Assembly (NCBI GenBank): GCA_945833925.1
Contig: CAMAFX010000003.1
Location: 18,012 to 82,011 of the forward strand
Length of the DNA: 64,000 nt
Origin: an uncultured Prevotellaceae bacterium
GTDB taxonomy: Bacteria; Bacteroidota; Bacteroidia; Bacteroidales; Bacteroidaceae
Direction of reading: 5' to 3'
Within the stretch, counting starts at the first letter, position 1. Every line of letters begins with the position of its first letter. The notes below the pieces were generated by a model that did no database searches, was not told where the DNA came from, and was given only the letters and a program-made list of their open reading frames with translations. Made by a program: the position numbers and the translations under genes. Shown piece by piece: positions 20,881 through 24,179 of the stretch.

Positions 20881-22608
20881 CTACCTCACAACTATCTCGT
20901 CTGTGAAAATCCAGCCTCCGCGCTTGCCTGACAGGGCTTGTATGCGCACATATCGTGCCTTTGTCGCACCTTTCTTGCCCGCTTTTCTTCCTGTCTTTCT
21001 CTTCGTTGCGGTGTTGCCTGCCTTCCACCCCATGGTCTCGTAGGCTGTGCTCACTGTGCTTTGCCCTGGCGTGTCGTGATGGAGCAGGGTGTAGTTCTCG
21101 CCGTCCGTACTCGTGTAGATGTTTATTTCTTCGGGCAGGAAGATCTCCGGTCCTATGCTTTGCAGGAAGTCTGCCTCTATGCTTTTTATCCTTTCCGTTT
21201 GCTCCAGATCGATGATAACGTCAAGTCTGCCGCGCGAGATGAAGCCCTGCCAGCGTCCGTCGTTGTTTGCCCATCCGCCTCGCAGTCCGTCGGTCAGTGC
21301 CGTGCTTCCGCCTGCCGAATAGTATTCGTTGTAGGGTGCGTTGTATGTCACCTTCTTGCCGGTCGACAGACATCGCACAGGCGAGTCGTGCTCTTGCCGT
21401 TCGCCAACCTCGCTTTCCAGCGGGAATGGAGTGATGTCGTGCTGGCGCAACCAGTTGAGTGCCTCGATGACCTTTCCTTTGTCCTTTGGCGTGTAGTCGT
21501 TGTCGTCCGCCCATGCCGACACTGCCAGTGCTCTGGGCCACAGCATGCGTTCGGCATGTCTGTCGTTGGGCACGTACTCGGTCCATAGGTTTACCTGCAT
21601 GCCGAGCAAGAGGCTGTCGGTCATCCTTTTCTTCACGTCGCGCGCGTATGCCCATATATTGTCAAGAGGTATGTATCCGCCTATTGCCTCGGGTTCGGTA
21701 AGCGGACAATCCTGGTAGGTGTCCACATAGCAGTGCTTTCCGGGGCAGAGTATGACCTCGTGCCCCTGTGCCATTGCCCTGGCTGCCGTGCTCTCGTCGC
21801 GCCACACCATGATGATGGGCTTGATGGCTGAGGTGTCGAGTGCAGTCGGTGGCAGAGCCTCGTCCCACAGAATGACCTTCCTTCCTGCCTTGTCAGCCAT
21901 CTCTGTCAACCTCTGGCTGGCATACTGCTGCAGTCGTTGACGCGAATCTCTGGCAGAGGGGGCAATGCCAAGTTCCTTCATTTTGGCAAGGCAACGCTCG
22001 CATGTTAGCCAGCGAGTGCCTCCTGCCTCGTCGCCTCCTAAGTGTATGTAAGGTGATGTGAAGATGCCGTTCAGTTCGGACAGAACATCGTTCATGAACG
22101 AGTACGATGCCTCGCTGCCCAGACAGAAGTCGGCACATTCGTAGGGCTTGCCTGTGCATCCTGTCTCCGGATATGCGGCGGTAACCTCCTCGCTGTGTGC
22201 CGGAAACTCTATTTCGGGAACTATCTGCACGCCGCGACTGTCGGCATACGCCACCAGACGTCGCATCTCCTCCTGTGTGTAGTAGCCGCCGAATGCCGTG
22301 TCGCTCTTCTCCTCGCTGTACAGTCGCCTGCCATCGTTCCACCATGTCTTCCACGACGCGTCGGTGCGCCATGCCGCCATGCTGGTCAGTCGTGGTCTGC
22401 TCTTTATCTCCAGGCGCCACCCTGCGGCATCGGTGAGGTGCAGGTGCAGGCGGTTTATGCCGAAGTGGCTCATGGCATCGACCTGACGGTAGAGAAACTC
22501 CATCGGCATGAAGTGGCGGCTTACGTCAATCATGATTCCGCTCCAGCGCTCTGCGCTGAAAGTCGTTGCCATTAGCAAGGAAAGTATGAGTGTGAGTATG
22601 CGTTTCAT
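20881..22608 (-). CDS. Secreted beta-N-acetylhexosaminidase (GH20) with C-terminal F5/8-type carbohydrate-binding domain
   Basis: IMIDVSRHFMPMEFLYRQVDAMSHFGINRLHLHLTDAAGWRLEIK, YIHLGGDEA catalytic DE pair. Confidence 0.93.
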   Translation of the reverse strand: MKRILTLILSLLMATTFSAERWSGIMIDVSRHFMPMEFLYRQVDAMSHFGINRLHLHLTDAAGWRLEIKSRPRLTSMAAWRTDASWKTWWNDGRRLYSEEKSDTAFGGYYTQEEMRRLVAYADSRGVQIVPEIEFPAHSEEVTAAYPETGCTGKPYECADFCLGSEASYSFMNDVLSELNGIFTSPYIHLGGDEAGGTRWLTCERCLAKMKELGIAPSARDSRQRLQQYASQRLTEMADKAGRKVILWDEALPPTALDTSAIKPIIMVWRDESTAARAMAQGHEVILCPGKHCYVDTYQDCPLTEPEAIGGYIPLDNIWAYARDVKKRMTDSLLLGMQVNLWTEYVPNDRHAERMLWPRALAVSAWADDNDYTPKDKGKVIEALNWLRQHDITPFPLESEVGERQEHDSPVRCLSTGKKVTYNAPYNEYYSAGGSTALTDGLRGGWANNDGRWQGFISRGRLDVIIDLEQTERIKSIEADFLQSIGPEIFLPEEINIYTSTDGENYTLLHHDTPGQSTVSTAYETMGWKAGNTATKRKTGRKAGKKGATKARYVRIQALSGKRGGWIFTDEIVVR

Positions 22609-22626: not shown

Positions 22627-22656
22627 AAAAAAAAGAAGGTTGTCATCACGACAACC
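22627..22656 (-). terminator. Intrinsic terminator in the 5' leader of the GH20 gene
   Basis: Reverse strand GGTTGTC-GTGAT-GACAACC-TTCTTTTTTTT. Confidence 0.85.
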
Positions 22657-22685
22657 AATCTTTCGTTAACCTTAAATCTAATACC
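22644..22685 (-). CDS. Putative 13-aa leader peptide MVLDLRLTKDWLS
   Basis: ATG GTA TTA GAT TTA AGG TTA ACG AAA GAT TGG TTG TCG TGA on the reverse strand; the last codons lie in the 5' arm of the terminator. Confidence 0.5.
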
Positions 22686-22700
22686 ATGAAAAACACGATG

Positions 22701-22730
22701 CAAAGGTACGGCTTTCCTGCAAATCTGCAA
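22701..22730 (-). promoter_or_regulatory. Promoter for the GH20 leader transcript (TTG / 19 nt / TACCTTTG)
   Basis: Reverse-strand -7 TACCTTTG (22708-22701) and -33 TTG (22730-22728). Confidence 0.75.
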
Positions 22731-22793: not shown

Positions 22794-24179
22794 TCACTTC
22801 AGTCCTATCTTGGCGAGTATGCTGCCAGATGGCTTTCGGAAGAGTGAATCAATCTTCTTGATAAGTTGCGAGCGGCAGAACACCACCACACTGTCGCCGG
22901 GCTGTATCTGCGTGTTACCGTTGATGGGCATGCCGACGTCGTTTCGGATAAGTCCGCCGAAGGTGATTCCCTCGGGCAACTTGATGTCGCGGATGAGGTG
23001 TTTGGTGATGGGTGAGTCGTCGGCTGCGATGAACTCGGCAACGTCGGCGTTGGCAATGTTCAGGCACTTCACGTTCGACACATCGGCGTCGAGCATCATC
23101 TGGTAGATGTGGCTTGCGGCGATGGTCTTCTTGTTGATGATGGTGCCTATGTCGAGTTTCTCAGCCATGTCTATGTAGTCCATGTTCTCGCACAGAGCCA
23201 CGGTCTTGCGCACGCCCATTCGCTTGGCAGCCAGGCACGCCAGGATGTTGGTCTCCGTTTCGGGTGTCAGTGCACAGAATGCCTGAGTGTCCTTGATGCC
23301 CTCGTCGAGTAGCAGGTTAGTGTCGCGTCCGTCGCCCTGAATCACCATTATCTCGTCGTCCAGCAGGTCGTTCAGGCGGTTGCATCTCACCTCGCTCTGC
23401 TCTATGATTCGCATGGACATGTAGTCGGGCTTCATCTGCGCCACGTGGATGCAGGTATGTCCGCCGCCCATTATCAGCACGTTCTTGACGTCTGCATAGT
23501 CCTCCTTGCCCACTATCTCGCGTATGTAGGGGATGTACTTGCGCGTGGTCATAAAGTATACGATGTCGCCAAGTTGCAACTCGTGTCTACCGTTGGGGAT
23601 GAGGGTCTCGCTGCCTCGCTTTATGGCTACCACATGGTAGGGGCTGTCGGGTGGACAAAGCGTGGCAAGCGGAGTGTTCAGTATCTTTGCGCTCTCTCTC
23701 AGTTTGATGCCAAGCATGACGAGGGCGCCTCCGTGAAACTCCCAGTACTGGCGTGCCCACGAGCGTTTCAGACCATTCATGATCTCCTCGGCTGCCAACT
23801 GTTCGGGGTAGATGAGCGAGTCGATGCCCATCTGTCGGAAGAAGTCCAGATGTGCCTTCTGCATGTACTCCGAGTTGTCCACACGTGCCACGGTCTTCTT
23901 AGCGCCCAGTGCGTGGGCAAGCATGCAGCAGGTGATGTTTCTTGCTTCGTCGGGCGTGACGGCAATGAAGAGGTCGGAGTGCTGAACGCCTGCTTCCTTC
24001 ATTCCCATGATGCTCGTCGTGGGCACGTTGAGTGTCAGCAGGTCATAGTTGCCTGCCTGCGATAGTGCCTCGGTCTTCTCGGGGTTCTCGTCGATGACGA
24101 TGATGTCCTGGTTTTCGTTTGAGAGCAGTTTTGCCAGGTGTGTGCCTACGGCTCCGGCTCCAGCTATTACTATCTTCAT
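22794..24179 (-). CDS. trkA: Trk system potassium uptake protein TrkA
   Basis: Two Rossmann/RCK modules: MKIVIAGAGAVGTHLAKLL and VKNVLIMGGGHTCIHVAQ. Confidence 0.93.
   Translation of the reverse strand: MKIVIAGAGAVGTHLAKLLSNENQDIIVIDENPEKTEALSQAGNYDLLTLNVPTTSIMGMKEAGVQHSDLFIAVTPDEARNITCCMLAHALGAKKTVARVDNSEYMQKAHLDFFRQMGIDSLIYPEQLAAEEIMNGLKRSWARQYWEFHGGALVMLGIKLRESAKILNTPLATLCPPDSPYHVVAIKRGSETLIPNGRHELQLGDIVYFMTTRKYIPYIREIVGKEDYADVKNVLIMGGGHTCIHVAQMKPDYMSMRIIEQSEVRCNRLNDLLDDEIMVIQGDGRDTNLLLDEGIKDTQAFCALTPETETNILACLAAKRMGVRKTVALCENMDYIDMAEKLDIGTIINKKTIAASHIYQMMLDADVSNVKCLNIANADVAEFIAADDSPITKHLIRDIKLPEGITFGGLIRNDVGMPINGNTQIQPGDSVVVFCRSQLIKKIDSLFRKPSGSILAKIGLK

Follow-up and report, generated by a model that had tools for sequence, protein, structure and literature searches.

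The window, a 64,000-nt stretch of DNA from a Prevotellaceae bacterium, carries a trkA-like gene (22794 to 24179, minus strand; PF02254/PF02080) and, downstream on the same strand, a gene of the beta-hexosaminidase family GH20 (20881 to 22608; PF00728, E = 1.6e-84), whose ATG is at 22608. A short element with its own promoter and terminator lies between the two genes, also on the minus strand. The promoter (22701 to 22730) is of the Bacteroidota sigma-ABfr type, with TTG at 22730-22728, a 19-nt spacer, and TACCTTTG at 22708-22701, and the predicted transcript start, read from the minus-strand sequence, is at approximately 22696. The intrinsic terminator (22627 to 22656) is composed of the stem GGTTGTC-GTGAT-GACAACC at 22656-22638 followed by TTCTTTTTTTT; it was picked up independently by a consensus terminator scan, and its T tract is 18 nt from the GH20 ATG. 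Translation of positions 22687 to 22646 gave a 13-codon open reading frame (ORF), ATG...TGA, encoding MVLDLRLTKDWLS, and in the window copy the loop of the hairpin includes its stop codon. An earlier note on this DNA had described these features, and its promoter, terminator, ORF, and GH20 assignment all agreed with what was found here. The note had read the arrangement as a candidate attenuator or short RNA, and it is the short-RNA half of that reading that the Rfam search bore out.

When the whole 64-kb window was scanned with Rfam, a single match exceeded its cut-off, the element at 22696-22626 on the minus strand. This segment matched the covariance model RF04319, BTncRNA_FopS, at 84.9 bits (gathering score, 56; E = 4.4e-11 for the 64-kb window), and the alignment covered model positions 1 to 71 of 71 without a gap. 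FopS was characterized in 2025 as a "family of paralogous sRNAs" in Bacteroides thetaiotaomicron (PMC11697453), where it comprises 14 copies with canonical sigma-ABfr promoters, a single-stranded 5' R1' seed, and a Rho-independent terminator (PMC11697453). Membership of the window element in this family is shown by its covariance score, its own Bacteroidota promoter, and its presence in several copies in the genome. Two copies were found besides that in the window, making three in a fragmented assembly, and FopS-bearing genomes of the genus contain one to six. The exact 59-nt core was found by a contig scan in one relative, a Bacteroidaceae metagenome-assembled genome (MAG) from water-buffalo caecum. 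Since the Rfam match is end to end, two further copies exist in the genome, and FopS is present in 122 of the 139 genomes of the genus, the element is far beyond what chance would produce. It is very probably a FopS sRNA gene, trans-acting by homology, whose position before GH20 is incidental, and it is clearly identified as an ordinary member of an already known sRNA family.

The 5' part of the element (22666 to 22696, minus strand) contains the R1/R1' seed GTGTTTTTCATGGTATTAGATTTAAGGTTAA with an anti-start CAT; its role as a seed is taken from the work in B. thetaiotaomicron (PMC11697453). Nucleotides 1 to 32 are unpaired in the minimum-free-energy fold, and the seed of the window copy does not differ from the consensus. 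For comparison, 104 FopS-like copies were collected with their flanks, and a weak class-level match (L056) was left out. The remaining 103 copies, 72 from the genus of the window and 31 from other genera, are a set skewed to high scores among the matches listed. Hardly any variation was seen across these 103 copies in the promoter or the opening 31 nt, and TAnnTTTG stands directly upstream in 72/72 copies from the genus and 27/31 from other genera. The terminator stems vary between genera with pairing kept (GGTTGTC/GACAACC, GGAGTAC/GTACTCC, GGCTGTCTG/TAGATAGCC, and GGGAATCT/AGATTCCC).

The genes that surround these copies differ from one copy to the next. With neighboring genes called as simple longest ORFs, the copies shared no same-strand gene or pathway downstream (78 families among 95 copies), and in 40 of 64 copies from the genus the next gene was encoded on the other strand. 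No FopS was found within 1.5 kb of the 11 nearest GH20 homologues. In one relative (G001), trkA is followed by FopS, then by a pair of opposite-strand genes (for the second, the strand was taken from its counterpart in the window), two more genes, and GH20, so that FopS and GH20 are approximately 5 kb apart; trkA adjoins FopS in this genome and is near FopS in another (G061). In the window, where this neighborhood recurs, GH20 comes immediately after FopS; between the two genomes, FopS has stayed with trkA and GH20 has moved. The promoter and the terminator travel with FopS and not with any one gene. The suggestion in the earlier note that similar leaders recur upstream of other genes is correct as to their recurrence in the genome and the genus, but what recurs is a set of paralogous sRNA genes and not the leaders of particular genes.

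These arrangements bear on the possibility that FopS is an sRNA that also acts in cis, leaky termination allowing low-level expression of GH20 from the FopS promoter with the ORF irrelevant. The 18 nt between the T tract and the GH20 ATG leave no space for a promoter after the terminator, and in seven copies from the genus a same-strand gene starts within approximately 50 nt. However, read-through from trkA could also reach GH20, and the FopS-GH20 arrangement is not conserved. We consider this addition to the sRNA function possible but rather unlikely.

The earlier note had outlined a translation-coupled attenuator of GH20, in which ribosomes on the 13-codon ORF determine whether the terminator forms. 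The geometry of the window, with the stop codon in the loop and GH20 directly past the T tract, fits such a model. Among the 72 copies from the genus, the ATG is kept in 71; the stop codon is in the hairpin loop in 37, whereas in 15 it is reached beyond the terminator and in 8 ahead of the hairpin. These shifts arise because the indels are not multiples of three, and the loop-stop geometry recurs because an invariant RNA sequence adjoins a fairly constant stem. In other genera, ATA stands in place of the ATG in 25 of 31 copies. Within the genus, about half of the copies have the frame shifted or closed at a different point. Nucleotides 3 to 27 are essentially fixed in 84 ungapped copies regardless of reading frame. 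Judged from these copies, the constraint is on the FopS RNA sequence and not on the peptide. A conserved leader ORF overlapping the terminator, the mark of an attenuator, was not found among the 103 copies, and putative small ORFs at the FopS loci of B. thetaiotaomicron were excluded by the authors of that study (PMC11697453). The attenuator thus fails on ORF conservation, on the frequently opposed and changing downstream gene, and on the GH20 homologues, and it is very improbable. A small-protein gene encoding MVLDLRLTKDWLS would fit the frame being open with an ATG in 71 of 72 copies from the genus, but this reading has a next-to-negligible probability, given that frame-breaking indels leave the RNA undisturbed, that ATA replaces ATG in other genera, and that synonymous-type variation is absent, the nucleotides being simply invariant. 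Most likely, the 13-codon ORF is not a gene.

Several other FopS-like copies have features of their own. Clustered copies, approximately 0.3 to 2 kb apart, occur at L128 (G070:C46), L151/L152 (G486:C112), and L135 (G121:C12), some with altered or duplicated seeds such as the ...GGTATTAGATTAGTTTTAAGG... repeats in L128. At five loci from several relatives (L023, L031, L032, L101, and L103), a putative sigma-70-like factor gene, judged by eye, follows FopS by approximately 97 nt on the same strand. The exact FopS seed is also present on 13 contigs of the IMG/VR viral collection (L287 to L299), which may represent phage genes or prophage flanks; carriage of FopS by phages has been hinted at in published work, and these matches agree with it. 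The match left out above, L056 (G233), comes from outside the order and is a diverged FopS-like element that scores 43.9 bits, below the cut-off, and bears a seed-like GTGTTTTTCATTGTCTTAATTTTAAAG and a terminator-like hairpin.

As a FopS gene, the element would be transcribed from its promoter into an RNA of approximately 70 nt that is unstructured and near invariant in its 5' half and carries a Rho-independent terminator. From its homology to FopS of B. thetaiotaomicron, which represses SusC-type mRNAs at the level of translation by pairing with them at the start codon (PMC11697453), this RNA would act in trans. Its seed, with the anti-start CAT, would block ribosome binding by pairing with mRNAs for glycan uptake and related functions at their translation-initiation regions. 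The complement of the seed reads ...ATCTAATACCATGAAAAACAC, which is a start-codon context. We scored first-ATG sites against the seed complement in 1.96 Mb of the window genome, including the window and the SusC loci, and used flank-permuted controls. Ten sites scored at least 13, compared with 1.9 expected, and 0.5% of 1,000 permutations reached that number. This excess of the seed complement at start codons is modest and suggestive of trans targeting. Duplex energies did not separate SusC start regions from ordinary genes of the window: the SusC first-ATG regions ranged from -8.5 to -21.3 kcal/mol, and the window genes had a mean of -13.6 kcal/mol (standard deviation, 2.9). The top predicted targets genome-wide were an epimerase, a GH13/CBM48 glucan-branching-type enzyme, a nucleoside-gate membrane protein, and a SusD. 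No single target emerged from these tests. The GH20 start region, as a cis target, has an ordinary duplex energy (-14.0 kcal/mol), and the site predicted in the glgB-type branching-enzyme gene is absent in the two close relatives with a readable start region.

FopS extends through nearly the whole family. It was present in 186 of 199 genomes and 21 of 22 genera in a family sample of genomes at least 90% complete, the window's own genome excepted. Outside the family, FopS is rare in the phylum: 7/396 sampled genomes, the window genome counted, gave a match. Of these, one belongs to a different family within the order, and another is a weak match at the class level. In B. thetaiotaomicron, the RRM protein RbpB antagonizes FopS, and RbpB binding is a property of the FopS members of that species (PMC11697453). 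A profile search for RRM_1 found no such domain in 138 of the 139 genomes of the genus, including that of the window, in counts that depend on MAG completeness and that would miss a non-RRM substitute or an RRM that has diverged strongly. The one remaining match covers 35 residues of a frame interrupted by stops. A lineage-specific RRM profile gave the same outcome over the genus, and the same RRM search was positive (E of approximately 1e-20) in five of six other FopS-bearing genomes. An RbpB-type partner for the window FopS was thus not found by RRM_1, and its membership in the family stands nonetheless, since RbpB binding is not defining for RF04319.

In the 199-genome family sample, RRM and FopS occurred together in 45 genomes, FopS without RRM in 141, neither in 13, and RRM without FopS in none. 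One genus (g183) lacked FopS in 12/12 sampled genomes and RRM as well, an apparent loss of the whole system. In published work, the RbpB-FopS circuit was suggested to be probably widespread among the Bacteroidaceae (PMC11697453). Because most FopS-bearing genomes have no RRM, that circuit is not general in the sampled family, taken here in the GTDB sense, which includes lineages that the authors may not have meant. We lean toward the view that FopS works without RbpB over most of its range, the antagonism being later or lineage specific, or another RNA-binding protein taking its place.

These data replace an attenuator reading by a known sRNA family and show FopS to be near universal in GTDB-type Bacteroidaceae, far past the Bacteroides species studied so far. 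Its RRM-less distribution is an unexpected point that is worth following: with no RRM in 141/186 FopS-bearing genomes, the question is whether FopS needs, or meets, an RNA-binding protein outside Bacteroides. The locus also carries a caution, since an sRNA that contains an ATG and ends in a terminator can mimic a leader-peptide attenuator. Attenuators of the trp/his type share its layout, a short ORF and a terminator ahead of a gene, but the window element has neither a conserved ORF nor a conserved regulated gene. GibS (RF04182) shares the 5' end and the R1 seed with the window element but is about twice as long and has an additional seed (R2) and a promoter of a different type, none of which the element has; this identity was rejected at 39.4 bits against a cut-off of 115, with the R2 region absent. 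A literature search for Prevotella sRNA maps returned nothing useful for comparison. Compared with FopS of B. thetaiotaomicron, copy number is lower (3 in the window genome and up to 6 in the genus versus 14), and the genus, unlike the B. thetaiotaomicron setting, yielded no RRM/RbpB-type protein. The window copy also reads CATGGTA, whereas CATAGTA is common in FopS of other genera. In promoter type, transcript length, single-stranded 5' seed, terminator, and scattered multicopy genes, FopS of the window and that of B. thetaiotaomicron are alike.
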